A stretch of 64,000 nt of DNA from NCBI RefSeq assembly GCF_000828515.1, contig NZ_AP010872.1, forward strand, positions 345,001 to 409,000. Reading direction: 5' to 3'. The notes beneath the pieces were generated by a model, which saw only the letters and a list, made by a program, of their open reading frames with translations, was not told the DNA's origin and ran no database searches. A program made the position numbers and the translations under genes. The stretch's first letter is position 1. Every line of letters begins with the position of its first letter. Of the stretch, positions 2,832 through 31,290 are shown in pieces. Origin of the DNA: Candidatus Ishikawaella capsulata Mpkobe (GTDB taxonomy: Bacteria > Pseudomonadota > Gammaproteobacteria > Enterobacterales > Enterobacteriaceae).

Positions 2832-2942
2832 TTATGCTGCTTATTAAGATAACAATATCTTCTGAACGATAGCTTCTAAATTCATATACTTTATTAAATA
2901 TACATATATAAAGTATAAAAATTTATCTATAAATATACTTAT

Positions 2943-2971
2943 TATACAGTTGATGTTATGAATTATATAAT
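2943..2971 (+). promoter_or_regulatory. Probable sigma-70 promoter of tRNA-Leu
   Basis: A perfect TATAAT -10 box (2966-2971) lies 17 bases after TATACA (2943-2948, four of six matches to TTGACA). Transcription would begin about ten bases before the tRNA. In such A+T-rich DNA chance matches are common, so this rests on the spacing and position. Confidence 0.45.
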
Positions 2972-2987
2972 AAAAAATTCACCTTTA

Positions 2988-3069
2988 GCCGGAGTGGCGA
3001 AATTGGTATACGCAGTTGACTCAAAATCAACCGTAGAAATACATGCCGGTTCAAATCCGGCCTTCGGCA
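2988..3069 (+). tRNA. leuX: tRNA-Leu(CAA)
   Basis: Class II tRNA with a long variable arm, closely matching E. coli leuX. The acceptor GCCGGAG pairs with CTTCGGC (one G-U pair). The anticodon loop CTCAAAA between GTTGA and TCAAC gives anticodon CAA, reading UUG. The T-arm GCCGG-TTCAAAT-CCGGC is intact. The 3' CCA is not encoded: the discriminator A is followed by CTA, so a CCA-adding enzyme is needed. It stands between ridA and rimI with its own spacing and is probably transcribed alone. Confidence 0.96.
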
Positions 3070-3092
3070 CTATTTTTAAGCTTGTAAAGTGC

Positions 3093-3114
3093 TAGTAAGA
3101 TGAATATCTTACTA
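3093..3114 (+). terminator. Hairpin after tRNA-Leu
   Basis: A perfect 9-bp stem (TAGTAAGAT with ATCTTACTA) closes a GAAT loop 24 bases after the tRNA. The expected run of T is missing; TAAAATAATAA follows. It may act as a transcript-end or processing hairpin. Confidence 0.4.
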
Positions 3115-3280
3115 TAAAATAATAAACATTACAAATTAACTTTAAATACTAAAGATATAATCTTATTAACACTACAATATGCTTTTGCTAGATTAAGCTA
3201 TTATGACTCATATGTAATTTTAAACTGGTGATGTGATAATCATTTAAAACAGATTTTTTATATAAAGTATATTTTTTATA

Positions 3281-3724
3281 ATGATAGAAATATTTTCATT
3301 AACTAATGATCAAATTGACCAAGTTGTAAATATTGAACAGTGTGATAAGTTATCTAACTGGGATAAAAAAACATTTATTATACATACTGGTAAAAAATAT
3401 TTTAATTTGTGTCTATCTTTAAATAAAACAATAGTTGGTTTTGCCATAACTCAAGTTATTATCGATGAAGCATCTCTTTTAAAGATATCTATTCATCCAA
3501 TATATCAAAGACGAGGTTATGGATCAAAGCTATTAGAATATTTAATAAAAAAATTACAACAACGTAATATTTTCATTATATGGTTAGAAGTAAGAATATC
3601 AAATTTTCCTGCTATTTATTTTTATGAAAAACTAGGTTTTAATTGTGTTCATCGTAGGTTGAACTATTACAAGACTGTTAATGGATATGAAGATGCCATG
3701 ATCATGGCCCGCAGTATTATATAA
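3281..3724 (+). CDS. rimI: Ribosomal protein S18 alanine N-acetyltransferase
   Basis: GNAT-fold enzyme that acetylates the N-terminal alanine of ribosomal protein S18. It has 147 residues, as in E. coli (148). The acetyl-CoA loop is YQRRGYGSKLLEYL (residues about 80-93); WLEVRISNFPAIYFYEKLGF and RRLNYY follow, the usual C-terminal family blocks. No strong ribosome binding site is visible before the ATG. It stands as a lone gene between tRNA-Leu and radA; its E. coli neighbour holD is absent. A non-essential modification enzyme kept in a reduced genome is mildly surprising. Confidence 0.92.
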   Translation: MIEIFSLTNDQIDQVVNIEQCDKLSNWDKKTFIIHTGKKYFNLCLSLNKTIVGFAITQVIIDEASLLKISIHPIYQRRGYGSKLLEYLIKKLQQRNIFIIWLEVRISNFPAIYFYEKLGFNCVHRRLNYYKTVNGYEDAMIMARSII

Positions 3725-3827
3725 TAGATATTATTTGAACATTTATATTATATGTGATAATTTTTCCTCTATCGAGATATATCTTTATATTACATATTTA
3801 ATATTTTACTGAGATAAGGTATTCTTA

Positions 3828-5204
3828 TTGAATAATATTCATAAATACACTTTTTTTTGTAATAAATGTTCAACTAGTTATCTTCGTTGGCAAGGACGAT
3901 GTAATAATTGTCAATCTTGGAATAGTATCCATAAGGAGTCAGAAAATTATTTATTTTTAAATTCTAAAAAATACTATGGATATGAATGGATATCTTCTGA
4001 TAATAATATACAACAACTCTCAGATATTAATATAGATAATTTATCGCGTTATTCCACTGGATTTCTAGAATTTGATCGTGTATTGGGAGGAGGCATTGTA
4101 CCTGGAAGTACTATATTAGTAGGAGGTAATCCTGGTATAGGTAAATCGACTTTACTGCTACAAACAATTTATATGCTTTCTAAAAATAAAAAAACTCTTT
4201 ATGTTACAGGTGAAGAATCTTTACAACAAATAGCCATACGTGCTCATAGGCTCAATTTAAAAACTAAAAATATGCAATTGCTGGCGGAAACTAATGTTGA
4301 AAAAATATGTTTCCTTGCTAATAAGGAAGATCCCCAAATAATAGTAATAGACTCTATACAGGTTATGTACAGTACTGAAGTGTCTTCTTCTCCTGGTAGT
4401 GTAGTACAAATACGTGAAACAGCTGCTTATTTAACACGTTTTGCAAAAAATTATAATATAGCCATTATCATGGTAGGGCATGTTACCAAAGATGGTTCAT
4501 TAGCAGGACCAAAAGTATTAGAACATTGTATAGATTGCTCATTAATTTTAGAAAAAAGTAATAAATCATATTTTTGTATTATGCGCAGTAATAAAAATAG
4601 GTTTGGTGCGGTCAACGAAATAGGCATCTTTTCTATGACTGACCAAGGAATAAATGAAGTAAATAATCCATCAGCTATTTTTTTATCTCATACACAAGAA
4701 ATTACTTCTGGTAGTTCAATAATGGTTCTTTGGGAAGGAACAAGACCATTATTGGTAGAAATTCAAGTATTAGTTGATTATTCTACGTTAAACAATGCTC
4801 GTCGCATAATAGTAGGTATTGAACAAAATAGATTAGCAATGCTTTTAGCTATTCTCCATCGTCATGGAGGATTACAGGTTACTGATCATGATATTTTTAT
4901 TAATGTAGTAGGAGGTATAAAAATCACTGAAACTAGTGCTGATTTATGTATATTATTAGCTATAGCTTCTAGTTTACATAATTATCCAATTCCACAAGAT
5001 ATAGTAATTTTTGGCGAATTGGGTTTAAATGGAGAGATACGTCCTGTACTAAATAGTGATGAACGTATATATGAAGCAGTTAAACATGGATTTAAACGTG
5101 CAATTATACCTATAGCTAATAAACCACAAAAAACAATTCCAGAAATAAAAATTTTTAGCGTAAGAAAATTAATTGAAGCCATAAACATTATTAAAAATTT
5201 TTAA
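3828..5204 (+). CDS. radA: DNA repair protein RadA, TTG start
   Basis: RecA-like ATPase that promotes branch migration of recombination intermediates. It has 458 residues. The N-terminal zinc finger has CNKC and CNNC (residues 11-29). Walker A is GGNPGIGKST near residue 99; the RadA signature KNRFG lies near residue 256; a Lon-like C-terminal domain follows. The start is TTG with AAGG about eight bases upstream; no better in-frame ATG precedes the zinc finger. Its neighbours in E. coli (serB, nadR) are absent. It is one of the few recombination genes seen here, since recR is missing from the dnaX block. Confidence 0.94.
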   Translation: MNNIHKYTFFCNKCSTSYLRWQGRCNNCQSWNSIHKESENYLFLNSKKYYGYEWISSDNNIQQLSDINIDNLSRYSTGFLEFDRVLGGGIVPGSTILVGGNPGIGKSTLLLQTIYMLSKNKKTLYVTGEESLQQIAIRAHRLNLKTKNMQLLAETNVEKICFLANKEDPQIIVIDSIQVMYSTEVSSSPGSVVQIRETAAYLTRFAKNYNIAIIMVGHVTKDGSLAGPKVLEHCIDCSLILEKSNKSYFCIMRSNKNRFGAVNEIGIFSMTDQGINEVNNPSAIFLSHTQEITSGSSIMVLWEGTRPLLVEIQVLVDYSTLNNARRIIVGIEQNRLAMLLAILHRHGGLQVTDHDIFINVVGGIKITETSADLCILLAIASSLHNYPIPQDIVIFGELGLNGEIRPVLNSDERIYEAVKHGFKRAIIPIANKPQKTIPEIKIFSVRKLIEAINIIKNF

Positions 5205-5267
5205 AATATAAATATATATGTTAATACATATTCATGGAGATAACTAAAAATAGTATTTTTCATTTTA

Positions 5268-5700
5268 ATGAAAGTATTGCTATTTCCTAATTTAATTCAT
5301 GCGGAAGAAATTGGTTCAGTAGATAGCCGTTTTCATATGTATGGTCATAACTCGCATATTACAATTGAAGCTTTTAATGATCCCGACCTGAAGTGAAGAA
5401 TGTTATTCGTACACCCAACACTGGAACTTTACAAGCTATTTTGGGTTTTGATAAATGGTGTAATGCATCTATTGCTTGTAAGCAAATTGGTCCTGTAGAA
5501 CTTAACCTATTAATTACTACTGGTAATAATAAAAATAAGTTTTTATTTTAAACAATTTCCCGAAATCTTCATTGTTAAAAACACTAAAAGTAGTAATTTT
5601 TTGTGATAAAATCCGTAATATGTTAATTTATTTAGATAAATTGACAGGATATCAGGAAAATGCTTTAAGTGTGGTTTATATCCATCCATGGAATCAATAA
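5268..5700 (+). pseudogene. creA: creA remnant, frameshifted
   Basis: Not an open frame, but three pieces align in order to CreA, a small secreted protein of unknown role. Piece one (5268-5396) reads HAEEIGSVDSRFHMYG and EAFNDPDLK, then TGA. Piece two, shifted, reads ACKQIGPVEL and stops at 5549-5551. Piece three reads LKTLKVVIFCDKIRN and ends YIHPWNQ-stop at 5698-5700, like the CreA end. At least two frameshifts separate the pieces. The place between radA and thrA matches the E. coli order. The identification comes from recalled family sequence. Confidence 0.8.
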
Positions 5701-5976
5701 AATAAATCGTTATGTCCAATGATTAATTGAAAAATATTTTATATGATTAATCAACGTTATAATAGATATTACTAAATAGCAGCATAATATAATTTCGTTG
5801 ACTTAATTTATACTTTGCTTTATTTCTAGAAATATCCAATCAGTAATTATATATAACATATATATGCATAATCAAAAATATTATGCCTGCTTAGTTAAAC
5901 TCTTATTGATAATACTTTAATCCAAAATATGCTTTTAAAAATCTAACAAGTTTACAAAATCAGGAGATTTGCAATT

Positions 5977-8427
5977 ATGCGAGTGCTGAAATTCGGGGGA
6001 ACATCGGTCGCCAATGCGGAAGGTTTTCTGCGAGTAGCTAATATATTGGAAAAAAGTGCAAAACATGGGCAAATCGCAACCGTACTATCGGCACCAGCAA
6101 AAATAACTAATAATTTAGTAGAAATGATTGAAAAAACGATTACAGGTCAAGATCCAATATCAAATATCAAAGATGCTGAATATATATTTGATGAAATATT
6201 AAATGGTCTATTTGTAGCAGAACCAGCATTTCCGTATAATACTGTAAAAGAAAGTGTTAAAAAAATATTTTGTTCGCTTAAACAAAGATTAGAAGGTATT
6301 AACCTGCTAGGTCAATGCCCTGAAAATATAAATGCCAAAATTATTTGTATGGGAGAAAAACTGTCAGTTACTATAATGGAGGCATTATTAAAATCACATA
6401 ATTATAGTGTTACAGTAATTAATCCAGTAGAAAAATTATTGGCTGTCGGTAATTATCTGGAATCTACAGTTGATATTACTGAATCAACTCGCCGTATTAC
6501 AAATCTTAAAATTCCCCAGGAAAATTTCATTTTAATGGCTGGATTTACGGCTGGAAATGAACATGGTGAACTTGTAATCTTAGGTCGTAATGGTTCAGAT
6601 TATTCTGCAGCTGTTTTAGCCGCGTGTTTACGTGCAGAACGTTGTGAAATTTGGACAGATGTAGATGGCATTTATACTTGTGATCCTCGTCAAGTATCCG
6701 AAGCTCGTTTATTAAAAGCAATATCATATCAAGAAGCTATGGAACTATCATATTTTGGAGCTAAAGTATTACATCCTCGAACTATTGCTCCCATTGCCCA
6801 ATTTCAAATACCTTGTATAATTAAAAATACTAATAATCCAACTGCATGTGGTACATTAATTGGACCTATAGCTAATAATACAAATGAAAATCCTGTAAGA
6901 GGGATTACCAGTTTAAATAATATGACAATGTTGAATGTATCTGGTGCTGGTATGAAAGGTATGATAGGTATTGCTGCCCGGGTATTTTCGGCTATGTCAC
7001 TTACTGGTATTTCGATTGCATTAATTACCCAATCCTCTTCAGAATATAGTATTAGTTTTTGTATTCCTCATAGCGAACATCTTCGTGCGAAAAGTGTACT
7101 AGAACAAGAATTTTCTCGAGAGCTTAAAGAAGGATTCCTTAATCCATTAGAAGTAATAGATAAAATTGCTATTATTTCGGTAGTAGGTGATGGCATGCGA
7201 ACATTACGAGGTATATCTGCTAAATTTTTTTCAGCTTTGGCTCATGCTAATATTAATGTTATTGCCATCGCTCAAGGCTCTTCAGAACGTTCCATTTCTG
7301 TGGTAATTAATAATAATGATGCCACTACTGGTGTAAGAGTTGTACATCAAAGATTATTTGAGACTGCTCAGATAATTGAAGTATTTATAATTGGCATTGG
7401 AGGTGTTGGTACAGCATTACTGGAACAACTACAACGCCAACAATTATGGTTAAAAAAGAAAAATATTGACATGAGAGTTTGTGGAATTGCAAATTCTAGA
7501 GTTACACATATTGATATATATGGTATTGACCTTAATAAGTGGCAGGTATTACTTAATAAATCTACTAAACCATTTATATTAAAAAAATTAATAAATTTAG
7601 TAAAAGAAAATCATTTACTTAATCCTGTTATAGTTGACTGCACTTCAAGTCAAGTTATTGCTGACCAATATACAAATTTCCTTAAAGGTGGATTCCACGT
7701 TGTAACTCCCAATAAAAAAGCCAATACCTCATCTTGGGATTATTATCAACAAATACGTAAGACAGTAATCACATCAGGTCGGAAATTTCTCTACGATACT
7801 AATGTAGGTGCGGGATTACCAGTGATTGAAAATTTACAAAATTTGTTACATGCTGGTGATGAACTAATAACATTTTGCGGTATTCTTTCTGGATCACTTT
7901 CATTTATTTTTGGCAAGCTGGATGAAGGTATAAGTTTCTCCCAAGCAACTCAGTTAGCATGTAAAATGGGATTTACAGAACCAGATCCTCGAGATGATCT
8001 TTTTGGGATGGATGTAGCACGTAAACTACTTATTCTAGCGCGTGAAGCCGGTTATAATTTAGAATTACGCGATATTAAGATTGAATCTTTATTGCCGGAA
8101 AAATTTAAAAACATTAATAATGTTGAAGATTTTATGCAACGTTTACCAGAGGTAGATACAAAATTTGCAACATGTGTTAAAAATGCACATGCAATGGGTA
8201 AAGTGCTACGATTCATTGGATATATTAATGAAGGCGGTATTTGTACAGTAAAAATTGAAGCTGTAGATAGTGATCATCCGTTTTATAAAGTAAACAATGG
8301 TGAAAATGCCTTGGCATTTTACAGTCATTACTATCAACCCATTCCATTGGTACTACGTGGTTATGGTGCAGGCAATAACGTAACAGCAGCAGGTGTTTTT
8401 GCTGATTTATTACGTATACTATCATAA
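5977..8427 (+). CDS. thrA: Aspartokinase I/homoserine dehydrogenase I
   Basis: Bifunctional enzyme that phosphorylates aspartate and later reduces aspartate semialdehyde to homoserine, at the head of the threonine pathway. It has 816 residues against 820 in E. coli. The kinase domain starts with [10 protein letters not shown] and contains [10 protein letters not shown]. Tandem ACT domains lie around residues 315-460. The dehydrogenase domain has the NAD(P) loop [15 protein letters not shown] near 468 and KANTS near 585. AGGAG precedes the ATG. Upstream DNA (5701-5976) shows no ThrL leader with threonine/isoleucine runs, so attenuation seems lost. It is the first gene of thrABC. Confidence 0.97.
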
Positions 8428-15882: not shown

Positions 15883-16146
15883 TTATGTTAATTTACTAAT
15901 ATGTAAACTTAATTTTGTTTTATGACGGGCTGCTTTATTTTTATGAATAAGTCCTTTAGTAGCTTGACTATCTAATAGTGGTTGCATTTTTTTAAATGCT
16001 GCTTGAGCAGCGGTTTTATCTCCAATAGCAATTGCAGCATAGACATGTTTGATAGAAGTACGAATCATAGAGCGTCGGCTGGCATTATACTTACGTTGCT
16101 TTTCTGATTTTATTATACGTTTTTTAGCGGATTTAATATTAGCCAT
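15883..16146 (-). CDS. rpsT: 30S ribosomal protein S20
   Basis: Small basic protein that binds 16S rRNA during 30S assembly. From the ATG at 16146 it is 87 residues, the E. coli length, starting [20 protein letters not shown] longer frame runs to 16212, but GGAGAG about seven bases before 16146 and the family N-terminus fix this start. It converges on dnaJ. The next gene in E. coli order, ribF, is a remnant upstream. Confidence 0.97.
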
Positions 16147-16339: not shown

Positions 16340-16650
16340 TTTGTTAAGTTTAAGATTAGAAAATTTCATCGTGGATGTGCCTTAACTATGGGTCATTTTG
16401 ATTGTATCCACCGTTGTCATAAATATTTTTTAAAAAATTACGCAACAAAAATTTATAAATATAAAATACCAGTTATGTTATTTGAAACTCATCAACTGGA
16501 ATTTCTTTTAGGTAGTCAAGTAAAGTTCCAGCGCATTTAACATGCATCAAAAATAAACATAATCGAAAAATATGGAATGTATTACTATGTAAAAAATTTG
16601 ATCATATTTTTCAAAATTATCGGCAGATGATTTTATCAACGATATTTGAA
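16340..16650 (+). pseudogene. ribF: ribF remnant (riboflavin kinase/FAD synthetase)
   Basis: Only about a third of ribF remains. One frame reads GCALTMGHFDCIHRCHKYF near 16373-16430, aligning to the nucleotidyl-transfer motif GNFDGVHRGH of RibF with two glycines replaced by Cys, then IPVMLFETHQLEF, and stops at 16538-16540. A shifted frame continues with VLLCKKFDHIFQNYRQ to about 16650. The remaining two thirds, including the kinase domain, are not recognisable before ileS. The rpsT-ribF-ileS order matches E. coli. FMN and FAD must then come from a second locus or from the host. Confidence 0.85.
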
Positions 16651-16865
16651 TTTCCCCAATCGAAATAAAAATATACAAACCTATAATATCTCCAATAACA
16701 GGCATATATATGGTAGAAATATTTTATTTAATTTTACTTATTGTAAATACTTAATACAACTTATACAGCTAAAGATATATATCTAATATTAATAGTGAAT
16801 TGGTTAAAAATAATATTTATTATGTATATACCGTTGTAAAATATCCATAAGAGACTTGAAAGGTA

Positions 16866-19682
16866 ATGACTAATTATAAATCTACTTTAAACTTACCAGT
16901 AACAAAGTTTCCCATGCGTGGCAATTTAGCTAAAAAGGAACCATTTATATTAAAACGCTGGCATGAGGACGATTTATATAGACTTATTTGTCAACATAAA
17001 AAAGGCAAAAAAATGTTTATATTACATGACGGTCCTCCTTATGCTAATGGGAAAATTCACATTGGCCATGCAATTAATAAAATTATTAAAGATATTATTA
17101 TAAAATCTAAAAATATGTCTGGTTTTAATGCTCCTTATGTACCAGGTTGGGATTGTCATGGTCTTCCAATTGAACATAAAGTAGAACAAATAACTAATAA
17201 AATAGCCGAAAAAATTACAGAGCAAAATTTTCGTTTATTGTGTCGGAAATATGCCATTGAACAAGTAGAAGCTCAAAAAAGAGACTTTATACGTCTTGGG
17301 ATATTAGGTGAATGGCATAATCCATATCTAACAATGGAATTTCATACTGAGGCAAATATCATTCGTGCTTTAGGAAAAATTATTGCCAAAGGTTACCTAT
17401 ATAAGGGATCCAAACCCATACATTGGTGTTTTGACTGTAGTTCCGCTTTAGCAGATGCAGAAGTTGAGTATCATGACATAAATTCTTTTTCTATATATGT
17501 TATGTTTATGGTTAGTAATATTGCATATATAAAAGATATCTTTAATATTAAAGATATTAATAATCCAGTAGGAATAATTATTTGGACCACTACCCCTTGG
17601 ACATTACCAGCTAACTGTGCTATTGCTTTACATCCATCTGCTGAATATCAATTAGTACATACTAAATATTATAATTTTATTATGGCCAAATCCCTTATTA
17701 ATGATGTGATGAAATGTTTTTCCATTTCATCATGGCAAATACTGGGAACAGTTATGGGATCTTCATTAGAAGATATATGTTTTCACCATCCTTTTATGGA
17801 TTTTGATATACCAGTAATTATGGGAGAACATATAACATTAGACATGGGTACTGGGGCAGTTCATATAGCACCTAATCATGGATTAGAGGATCATATTCTC
17901 TGTAAAAAATATAATATCAAAAATAAGAACTTCGTTCAATCTAATGGTAACTATATACAAGGAACTTATCCAACATTAGATGGAATAAATATATTTAAAG
18001 CTAATGATTTAATCATAAAATTACTGCAGAAAAATAATTGTCTTCTTAAAGTTGAACACTTCTATCATAGTTACCCACATTGCTGGCGTCATAAAAATCC
18101 TGTTATTTTGAGAGCGACTCCACAATGGTTTATTAACTTAGATAAAAATAACTTAAGGTCGAGACTTATAGAAGAAATTAAAAAAGTTAAATGGGCTCCA
18201 GGTTGGGGTCAATTACAAATGGAAACCATGGTTAGAAATAGTCCGGATTGGTGTGTATCTAGGCAACGAAGTTGGGGAGTTCCTTTGACACTTCTAGTAA
18301 ATAAAGACACTGATCAATTACATCCAAATACCTTAAACTTGATAGAAAAAATAGCTAAACTTGTAGAAAAAAAAGGTATTCAAGTTTGGTGGGATATTGA
18401 TATATATGATCTTATAGGTAAAGATGCTAATAATTATGTAAAAATACTAGATGTATTAGATGTTTGGTTTGATTCAGGTTGTACAAGCTATTCAGTTGTA
18501 GAAAAGCGTCCGGAATTTGAAGATCATCTACCCGATATGTATCTAGAAGGATCAGATCAGTATAGGGGATGGTTTATGTCATCTCTAATTATTTCTACTC
18601 TTATAAGAGATAAGGCACCTTATAAGAAGGTGATCACTCATGGTTTTGCTGTAGATGCACAAGGTCGTAAAATGTCTAAATCAATAGGCAATACTATATC
18701 TCCTCAAGAAATAGTAGATAAATTTGGTGCTGACATTTTACGCATATGGGTAGCATCAAATAATTATTCCAGTGAAATGGCGGTATCTCATGAAATTTTA
18801 ACACGCTCTGTAGACATTTATCGTCGCATTCGTAATACAGCACGTTTCTTACTAGCTAATATTAACGATTTTAATCCTCAAAAAGATTTAGTAGAACCAG
18901 AAAATATGGTAGCTATTGATAGATGGGCTGTAGGGAAAGCAAATTTAACACAATTAGATATTACTAAATTTTATGATAATTATGATTTTCATAGTGTAAT
19001 TCAACATTTAATGCAATTTTGTTCCATAGATATGGGTGCTTTTTATCTTGATATCATTAAAGATCGTCAGTATACAGGTAAAAGAAAAAGTTTTGCAAGA
19101 CTTAGTTGTCAAACAGCATTATGGCATATTACACAAGCGCTAGTACGTTGGATATCGCCTATTATTTCTTTCACTGCTGATGAAATTTGGAACTATTTAC
19201 CAGGTGATCATAGTAAATATGTATTTACTGAAGAATGGTATGATGGTCTTTTTAGTTTATCAGATAATACAGAACTAAATGATTCTTATTGGTCTGAATT
19301 AATTCATATACGCAATGAGGTAAATAAGATCATAGAAAAAGCACGTTCGGATAAATATATTGGCAACAACCTAGAAGTATCTCTTGTGTTGTATGCAGAT
19401 CAAGATTTAGCTGCTAAATTATACCTTTTAGGAAAAGAATTAAAATTTCTTTTATTAACTTCAGAAGTACAAATATATGATTTGTCAAAAGCTGGTGAAG
19501 ATGTGCAACAAAGTAAATTATTTAAAGGGTTAAAAATTAAGATCAATAAATCTAAAGGTAAAAAATGTTTGCGTTGTTGGCATTATACCTATGATATAGG
19601 TGCAAATAAAAATAATGTGAATATATGTAGTCGTTGTTATGATAATATTTTTGGTGAAGGCGAGTATCGTAGATACGTTTAA
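16866..19682 (+). CDS. ileS: Isoleucyl-tRNA synthetase
   Basis: Charges tRNA-Ile and edits misactivated valine. It has 938 residues, the E. coli length. Class I signatures are [12 protein letters not shown] (HIGH) near residue 58 and KMSKSIGN near residue 603. The editing domain carries [11 protein letters not shown]. The C-terminal zinc site is CLRCW with CSRC about 20 residues later. The stop overlaps the lspA start by one base (TAATG), coupling the two genes as in E. coli. Confidence 0.98.
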
Positions 19683-27314: not shown

Positions 27315-28163
27315 TTAATGTCCTATTGATATAGGAAAGATATTTTTCTTCACAAGACTATATTGATTAGATATCGAATTAGCTAACTTGATATATTGTT
27401 CTCCTGATATATTTTCTGCTCGTGACAGAGGGCAAATACCAAACAATTCTAAAACTTCTGCTGTAAATATATTCTTCAAACTATTGCGTAAAATTTTCCT
27501 CCTTTTTTTAAAAGCTTCATTTACAATAAAATTTAACATACACATATCTATGGCGGGATAAGGTATTATTTGATGAGGTATTAAACGTACCATTACTGAA
27601 TCTACATTAGGTGATGGAAAAAAAGAACCTGAAGATATTGTAAACAAAGGAATTATTTGACAATAGTATTGTGCCATGATAGTTAATTTACCATAAGATT
27701 TTTCTCCAGGTTTTGCTACTAATCGATCGGCTACTTCTTTTTGAAGCATAAAATGCATATCTTTAATGAAAGTAATGTAATTAAAGAGATAAAATATTAT
27801 TTTTGTGGAAATATTATAAGGTAAATTACCAAATATTCTCATTTTTTTATTTTTTTGTATCAATTTACTGAAATTAACATTCATAACATCTTTTTCAAGA
27901 ATAATTATTTTTTTATTTATATGGTTATTGTCACTTAACCGTCTTACTAAATCGCGATCAATTTCTATTATCGTTAAGTTATCTAAATACTTAATTATTG
28001 GTTCCGTTAAAGCTCCTAATCCCGGACCAATTTCTATGATATAATCATTGGATTGCGGATTAATAGCAGATATTATTCTATTAATAATGTTTACATTTAT
28101 TAAAAAATGTTGTCCAAAACGCTTTCGTATATGGTGGTTTTTATAGAATTGTTTATGCATCAT
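27315..28163 (-). CDS. rsmA: 16S rRNA adenine dimethyltransferase
   Basis: Dimethylates two adjacent adenines in the 3' hairpin of 16S rRNA, also called KsgA. It has 282 residues. The family start [14 protein letters not shown] is followed by the SAM motif [12 protein letters not shown] (residues about 44-55) and the catalytic NLPYNIST (about 118-125). The first codons overlap the pdxA 3' end by 11 bases, so it is likely translated by coupling. The order pdxA-rsmA-apaH is as in E. coli. Confidence 0.96.
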
Positions 28164-29148
28164 TTTTTTTACTTATATGAATTGCCAAATTAATAGCTTT
28201 CATAAGACTGTAGGAATCAGCTATATTCTGACCAGCTAATTGAATAGCTGTACCATGATCAACAGATGTACGGATAAATGGAAGACCTAATGTAATATTA
28301 ACAGCTTTACCAAACCCTTGAAATTTTAATACTGGTAATCCTTGATCATGATACATAGCTAGTATAGCATCAGCACTTCTTAGATATTCCGGTTGAAAAA
28401 TCGAATCTGCTGATAGTGGTCCAGTTAAGTAAATGCCTTCTTTACGTAACTTTTTTAAAGTGGGTATAATAGTAACAATTTCTTCTTGACCTATATATCC
28501 ATTTTCTCCTGCATGAGGATTTAATCCACATACATAAATATGTGGCTTATCTAAAGAAAATTTTTTTTGTAACTCACTGTGTAAAATAGTTATTATTTCA
28601 TATAGGCTATTACAAGTAATTGCAGAGTAAACTTCTTTTAATGGTAAGTGATTAGTGGCAAGTGCTACTCGCATATTATCTGTTACAAACATCATGACAG
28701 CTCTTTTACAATTCGTTACATTAGCAAAAAATTCTGTATGACCTGTAAAATCAATACCTGCAGCATTAATAATGCCTTTATGTACAGGACCTGTAATAAG
28801 CGCTTGAAACTCTCCTGTCATACATTTCTCACAAGCCATTGATAAAGTATTTATTACATATTGACTATTAGCAATAGACAGATGACCTGCTTTTACTGGA
28901 TGAAGCGTATCTATAGGAAAAACGGTCAAAGTGCCACGTTGGTGTTTCTGCGGAGATTTGCTTGGATCATATTGACGAAGTATCAATGGTAATCCCATTT
29001 GTTTAGCTCTATTTTTTAACAATTCCATACAGCTAAAAACTACTATTTCGACCGGCCAATAATGTTGTGCTATCTGAATCACTAGATCTGGTCCAATTCC
29101 TGCTGGTTCACCAGGTGTAATTGCTAACCGGAAATTACTATTTAACAT
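28153..29148 (-). CDS. pdxA: 4-Hydroxythreonine-4-phosphate dehydrogenase
   Basis: Oxidises 4-phosphohydroxythreonine; PdxJ then joins the product with DXP to make pyridoxine phosphate. It has 331 residues. It starts with [19 protein letters not shown]. The metal-binding histidines lie in [14 protein letters not shown] and [11 protein letters not shown]. The other precursor, DXP, is made by Dxs, also in this window. It overlaps rsmA by 11 bases. A surA remnant sits upstream where surA precedes pdxA in E. coli. Confidence 0.96.

Positions 29149-29955: not shown

Positions 29956-31290
<1,335 letters not shown>

Follow-up and report, generated by a model that had tools for sequence, protein, structure and literature searches.

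A decaying ribF beside an intact riboflavin pathway in the extracellular stinkbug symbiont Candidatus Ishikawaella capsulata

Results and Discussion

The locus between rpsT and ileS in Candidatus Ishikawaella capsulata is a decaying remnant of the ancestral ribF, the gene for the bifunctional riboflavin kinase/FAD synthetase (Table 1). By gene content, the bacterium would be a maker of riboflavin that lacks FMN and FAD synthesis. A dead ribF is combined here with a whole riboflavin pathway, and no known enzyme for FMN or FAD formation was found; we consider it likely that the pathway is kept for the host and that the flavin coenzymes are obtained from outside the cell.

The window is the whole stretch of DNA analyzed, 64,000 nucleotides at positions 345,001–409,000 of NZ_AP010872.1, the chromosome of Ca. 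Ishikawaella capsulata. The genome comprises 754,729 bases in two contigs (745,590 and 9,139 bases), has a listed completeness of 99.95%, and is the whole sample for the genus Ishikawaella. I. capsulata (AP010872.1) is described as an extracellular symbiont of Megacopta punctatissima, with a chromosome of 745,590 bp and one plasmid (PMC7218078); its reported home is the gut crypts of the plataspid stinkbug, outside the host cells (PMC11586681, PMC7218078).

Table 1. Features in the window that bear on flavin and vitamin B6 metabolism (positions in the window).
Feature	Position	Strand	Evidence
rpsT, upstream neighbor	15883..16146	-	tblastn 71% identity, full length
ribF relic, piece 1	16352..16579	+	RibF HMM 37.8 bits, positions 9-86; N-terminal FAD-synthetase region, one internal TAA
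ribF relic, piece 2	16560..16673	+	RibF HMM 8.1 bits, positions 82-119; other frame, further stops
Putative flavokinase-domain trace	16680..16796	+	5.7 bits, RibF positions 215-253; weak
ileS, downstream neighbor, intact	16866..19682	+	ORF 938 aa; tblastn 60% identity over 1-938 of 938
pdxA, intact pyridoxine phosphate synthesis step	28153..29148	-	tblastn 61%; TIGR00557 409 bits vs. cut-off 290.35
trxB, thioredoxin reductase (FAD enzyme), intact	30307..31290	+	tblastn 75%; TIGR01292 392.9 bits vs. cut-off 343.45

The ribF relic

The Pfam FAD_syn model (PF06574) has a single match in the genome, at window positions 16361-16588 (34.6 bits vs. a cut-off of 27), which covers positions 3-80 of the 158 in the domain and contains a TAA, and so falls short of a complete FAD_syn domain. 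A RibF HMM (model length 311) was built from 17 sequences, E. coli RibF and 16 other orthologues, and recovers two overlapping pieces of the N-terminal half followed by a possible vestige of the flavokinase domain, which the HMM also picks up at 16677-16763. Approximately 95 codons are absent between the second piece and this trace. A single open frame of ~310 aa is replaced by pieces in at least two frames interrupted by stops, and E. coli RibF aligns to the relic only over residues 15-62 of 313 (42% identity). The relic spans 16352 to ~16796; the sequence-only reading had placed a two-frame partial gene at 16340-16650, which agrees with the pieces in at least two frames, and the span is somewhat longer than proposed because the second piece and the flavokinase trace reach past 16650.

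Each piece was compared with 1000 dinucleotide shuffles, of which only those that scored were counted. The score of the core (40.9 bits) was reached by none of 970 scoring shuffles (best shuffle 6.8), and that of the tail, the second piece (13.6 bits), by none of 979. For the flavokinase trace, 2 of 926 scoring shuffles attained its 5.7 bits, and the trace is only suggestive of a remainder of that domain. The nucleotidyl-transfer motif (GNFDGxHxGH type in a functional RibF) of the relic reads TMGHFDCIHRCH, in which, by alignment with the 17 RibF sequences, both motif glycines have been changed to Cys, as had been noticed from the sequence; in the 17 aligned RibFs the first glycine is present in 16 (Ser in the other) and the second in all.

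The interval from rpsT to ileS is the usual site of ribF in Enterobacterales. The order rpsT-ribF-ileS is common to E. coli and to genome G341, which carries an intact ribF between the two neighbors; thus, the relic occupies the orthologous place. The rpsT-ileS gap measures 719 bases, compared with 942 for E. coli ribF. Significant similarity (the PF06574 match, the RibF HMM, and the shuffles) and orthologous position together bear out the earlier identification of a ribF remnant.

Search for a substitute enzyme

An intact ribF elsewhere in the 754,729-base genome, the finding that would have overturned the sequence-only reading, was sought with five enzyme families, and none was found: PF06574 detects the relic alone, and the flavokinase model PF01687 has no match in the genome even at E 10, and so no C-terminal flavokinase domain was recovered. 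By comparison, PF01687 exceeds its cut-off in 53 of 60 genomes searched (Ishikawaella counted among the 60), and in a sample of the order the count is 384 of 394. An archaeal RibK as replacement is rejected, as the archaeal riboflavin kinase model (PF01982) has no match in the genome. For an archaeal RibL-like FAD synthetase (PF01467), the one weak hit in the genome is PanC, with nothing over the cut-off; for a eukaryotic PAPS-reductase-like FAD synthetase (PF01507), the matches above the cut-off are CysD and CysH, and a weak hit is TilS. To our knowledge, PF01687, PF06574, PF01467, PF01507, and PF01982 represent all known routes of flavokinase and FAD synthetase activity. Genome-wide, neither an intact ribF nor a known substitute was found, and within the limits of these searches no known enzyme family would still allow the cell to convert riboflavin to FMN or FAD.

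Riboflavin synthesis and retained flavoenzymes

All five riboflavin genes are present at full or near-full length, with tblastn identities to E. coli of 78% (ribA), 66% (ribB), 57% (ribD), 67% (ribH, which the E. coli record lists as ribE), and 59% (ribC). They lack internal stops, each exceeds at least one NCBIfam cut-off, and the pathway is complete. The sequence-only reading had proposed a check for ribA/B/D/E/H and had itself missed these intact genes, which means that what the symbiont would need is FMN and FAD, not the vitamin. The genome of the kudzu bug symbiont has been said to encode most steps for vitamins including riboflavin (PMC6706230, citing Brown 2014).

Flavin-dependent functions are retained. 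Fourteen of 19 E. coli flavoenzyme queries were found by tblastn: sdhA, lpd, trxB, mnmG, murB, metF, ilvI, aroC, fldA, phr, nuoF, ubiX, pyrD, and cysJ. These queries are FMN or FAD enzymes. There was no tblastn match for dusB, mnmC, or dfp; pdxH is fragmented; and the nadB query retrieves sdhA only. NCBIfam cut-offs were passed by all 10 of sdhA, lpd, mnmG, metF, ilvI, aroC, nuoF, cysJ, pyrD, and murB, and, with trxB (which had been called intact from the window, correctly), by all 11 flavoenzymes scanned; fldA, phr, and ubiX were identified by tblastn. Because FMN and FAD enzymes remain and no known enzyme of FMN or FAD synthesis does, we infer that flavin coenzymes must come from outside.

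Parallel losses in other coenzyme pathways

The flavin pathway is not the only one to be cut near its end. For vitamin B6, serC, pdxB, pdxA, and pdxJ are kept and pdxH is broken; pdxY and pdxK were not found in the genome by tblastn with the E. coli proteins. Pyridoxine phosphate could thus be made, and pyridoxal 5′-phosphate (PLP) could not be made by the pdxH route. The broken pdxH lies at C1:506505-506091, in at least two frames.

Between vitamin B5 and CoA, panB, panC, and coaE are kept, coaD is a relic, and panD, coaA, and dfp were not found in the genome with E. coli queries; for the nad and coa genes, absence denotes that the E. coli protein gave no tblastn hit at E 1e-3. Since panD was not found, pantothenate would not be made without β-alanine from outside, and since coaA and dfp were not found, coaD is a relic, and coaE is intact, the route to CoA is interrupted ahead of the final step. 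The retention of coaE is compatible with import of dephospho-CoA, and is no proof of it. The coaD relic is in two pieces (C1:728509-728732). For NAD, nine genes of synthesis, salvage, and transport were queried, and nadK alone was found; nadA, nadB, nadC, nadD, nadE, nadR, pncB, and pnuC were not found in the genome by tblastn. The biotin genes bioA, bioB, bioC, bioD, and bioF are all kept, along with birA.

The AMP-attaching steps toward FAD, NAD, and CoA (RibF, NadD, and CoaD) are therefore gone or relics, and the kinases NadK and CoaE are kept. In gene content the genome matches a Rickettsia-type importer, in that synthesis of FMN/FAD, NAD, and CoA is absent or broken and the users of these coenzymes are kept. 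The shared cut in B6 and partly in B5, together with the loss of NAD synthesis while NadK is kept, suggests that coenzymes in finished form are taken up generally, and that flavins are not a special case.

Alternative explanations

An assembly or sequencing error in ribF, or an intact copy on an unassembled replicon, is highly improbable. Such genomes often carry single-base indels in poly-A or poly-T tracts, and slippage has been proposed as a possible correction of a ribF frameshift in Blochmannia vafer (PMC3017870), but the Ishikawaella locus carries many lesions instead of one indel: the first piece covers RibF positions 9-86 only, the ~95 codons are gone, there are several stops, and both glycines are changed. 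A sequencing or slippage artifact is rejected on the number of these separate lesions. Moreover, E. coli ribF is longer than the whole rpsT-ileS interval, the listed completeness of the genome is 99.95%, and the chromosome length equals the published value, with one plasmid (PMC7218078).

Import would be unnecessary if the genome encoded an unrecognized family of flavokinase and FAD synthetase, or a promiscuous kinase acting with an adenylyltransferase. Some ~600 ORFs of at least 80 aa were called, most without annotation here, and a cell that requires flavins must have some solution; we nevertheless regard such a hidden enzyme as fairly unlikely, given that all five families searched returned nothing that could serve, that no PF01467 adenylyltransferase exceeds the cut-off, that ribF and coaD are relics, and that nadD was not found. 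The adenylyltransferase losses look like release from making dinucleotide-type coenzymes, not like the replacement of one enzyme. Another variant accepts import but restricts it to FAD (or FMN), with interconversion inside the cell, such as by splitting FAD to FMN. In that case one carrier for dinucleotides would suffice, with NAD and dephospho-CoA as cargo of a similar kind; the present evidence is equally compatible with import of both flavins, and we judge the restricted form unlikely.

Proposed source of FMN and FAD

The likely course thus remains uptake of flavin coenzymes from outside by a bacterium that makes riboflavin for its host. The riboflavin pathway would have been retained most likely owing to the host's need for the vitamin, and the riboflavin would pass to the host. 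The simplest source of FMN and FAD would be the riboflavin kinase and FAD synthetase of the host, and the symbiont would take up the finished coenzymes in the midgut crypts via some putative carrier. The insect host is probably the supplier of the finished coenzymes. The extracellular life of the symbiont makes such a supply less obvious than in Rickettsia or in an intracellular symbiont.

A flavin importer, which the sequence-only reading had proposed to look for, was not recognized: no flavin or nucleotide carrier was identified among 10 scanned proteins of the 32 ORFs in the genome with at least five predicted membrane spans. The 10 comprise DtpA, TsgA, YajR-type and DHA2-like MFS proteins, a sugar porter, an SBF-like protein, TerC, a MarC-type protein (YhgN), MscM, and a Na+/H+ antiporter. 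Many of the remaining 22 multi-span ORFs are, by eye, respiratory-, cell-wall-, or secretion-like; a carrier could be among these 22, or among proteins with fewer spans. FAD (~785 Da) is large for porins, and we know of no well-known bacterial carrier of such large coenzymes. The proposed uptake predicts entry of FMN, FAD, NAD, and a CoA precursor into a cell with a transporter-poor genome that lives outside the host cell, and would narrow the search for bacterial carriers of large coenzymes.

A wider exchange, in which vitamins go out and coenzymes come back, is plausible, and we advance it tentatively. Synthesis of riboflavin and pyridoxine phosphate, and the final part of pantothenate synthesis, may serve the host only, with FMN/FAD, PLP, NAD, and a CoA precursor imported. 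This hand-off may have arisen repeatedly, in at least ten further genera of the family when these are counted by RibD kept and FAD_syn absent. If so, a vitamin pathway retained by such a genome would report host demand directly. Riboflavin that is made but cannot be used by its maker would cleanly exemplify a pathway maintained for a partner, with selection on the five rib genes acting via the host alone.

Recurrence in the family and order

The sequence-only reading had called the dependency unusual. Its core, a dead ribF with no substitute found, stands, and "unusual" is too strong. The family sample consisted of 391 genomes (completeness of at least 90 requested; FAD_syn match threshold E 0.001), with an FAD_syn match in 339 and none in 52. 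By rounded sizes, all 52 genomes without a match are at most 0.9 Mb, and all 287 larger genomes have one. RibD, used alone as the proxy for the riboflavin pathway in this survey, is kept in 25 of the 52, which span ten genera (g31, g146, g158, g171, g184, g187, g188, g205, g214, and g220), and is also lost in the other 27. Because these 27 lack RibD, retention of the pathway after ribF loss is one of two common outcomes, not a rule. The Ishikawaella genome itself stands outside these counts, as do G440 and G735, which have weak FAD_syn matches (9.7e-4 and 1.0e-6, respectively) and keep RibD. In two genomes of one genus among the 25, RibD contains an in-frame TGA (G449, C1:466032-466673; G689, C1:354271-354912), which may stem from recoding, an error, or early decay.

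Genera g146, g171, g187, and g188 each include genomes with ribF and genomes without it, which speaks for repeated loss. The survey thereby offers material for comparison, as ribF has been lost within genera in which it is otherwise retained. Examination of individual genomes by tblastn gave varied states: the complete set of five rib genes is present, and ribF absent, in G030 and G436 (for G030 only, NCBIfam models were also used), G098 has ribA, ribB, ribD, and ribH with no ribC hit, and G033 has ribC and ribH only. In G498, ribA, ribB, and ribC are present in the part of the genome examined, and RibD is known from the survey. In G436, ribF has been deleted outright, as rpsT and ileS lie ~190 bases apart. 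Beyond the family, RibD is present in four of six genomes of family f24 of the same order, and a flavokinase match in none of the six. Ishikawaella is therefore better viewed as one member of a recurrent state than as a singular oddity; its interest lies in the intact riboflavin pathway and the extracellular setting.

Comparison with known systems

The closest precedent in print is Arsenophonus ARAD of the whitefly A. dispersus, in which the riboflavin pathway is complete, ribF is pseudogenized, and a host gene is proposed to complete FMN/FAD synthesis (PMC6167482). The two share a whole riboflavin pathway with a dead ribF; unlike Ishikawaella, ARAD is a whitefly endosymbiont, its relatives ARAF and ARTV keep ribF, and its B6 pathway is reported as kept (PMC6167482), whereas Ishikawaella is extracellular in the gut and is also interrupted in its B6, B5, and NAD routes. 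Rickettsia lacks riboflavin kinase/FAD synthetase and is said to import FMN, FAD, NAD, and dephospho-CoA by carriers described as unknown (PMC5615194); it is intracellular and makes no riboflavin, in contrast to Ishikawaella, which inhabits gut crypts and has all the riboflavin genes.

Blochmannia obliquus and B. turneri are, like Ishikawaella, reduced insect symbionts with losses in the flavin pathway, but the cut is the opposite one: ribABCDH are lost in these two species, and ribF is reported as conserved in all six sequenced Blochmannia species (PMC4389277). Candidatus Benitsuchiphilus tojoi, the reported closest relative of Ishikawaella and likewise an extracellular gut symbiont of a stinkbug, is, unlike Ishikawaella, reported to make both riboflavin and FAD (PMC7218078).

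A literature search, with the primary Ishikawaella genome paper (Nikoh 2011) outside its reach, returned no paper that treats both Ishikawaella and ribF; the portions of PMC5392233, PMC10841577, and PMC9561257 that it covered contain nothing on loss of ribF in Ishikawaella. What is new relative to the sequence-only reading is the joint presence, beside a dead ribF, of five intact rib genes and of flavoenzymes that exceed their cut-offs in 11 of 11 cases.

Additional observations

Two larger genomes of the order depart from the pattern of clear RibF matches. G166 (1.9 Mb, family f9) has no flavokinase match, only a weak FAD_syn match, and no RibH; G056 (1.7 Mb, family f22) has weak matches only, with RibH present. 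A divergent RibF is possible in both.

The 9,139-base plasmid of Ishikawaella had no near match in PLSDB except for one 327-base piece in Pantoea carbekii. Seven ORFs are listed for it, among which, by eye, are a methionine aminopeptidase-like ORF (2040-2792), an aminotransferase-like ORF (2833-4071), and an aldehyde dehydrogenase-like ORF (5080-6537); by sight, the set is reminiscent of the arginine succinyltransferase operon.
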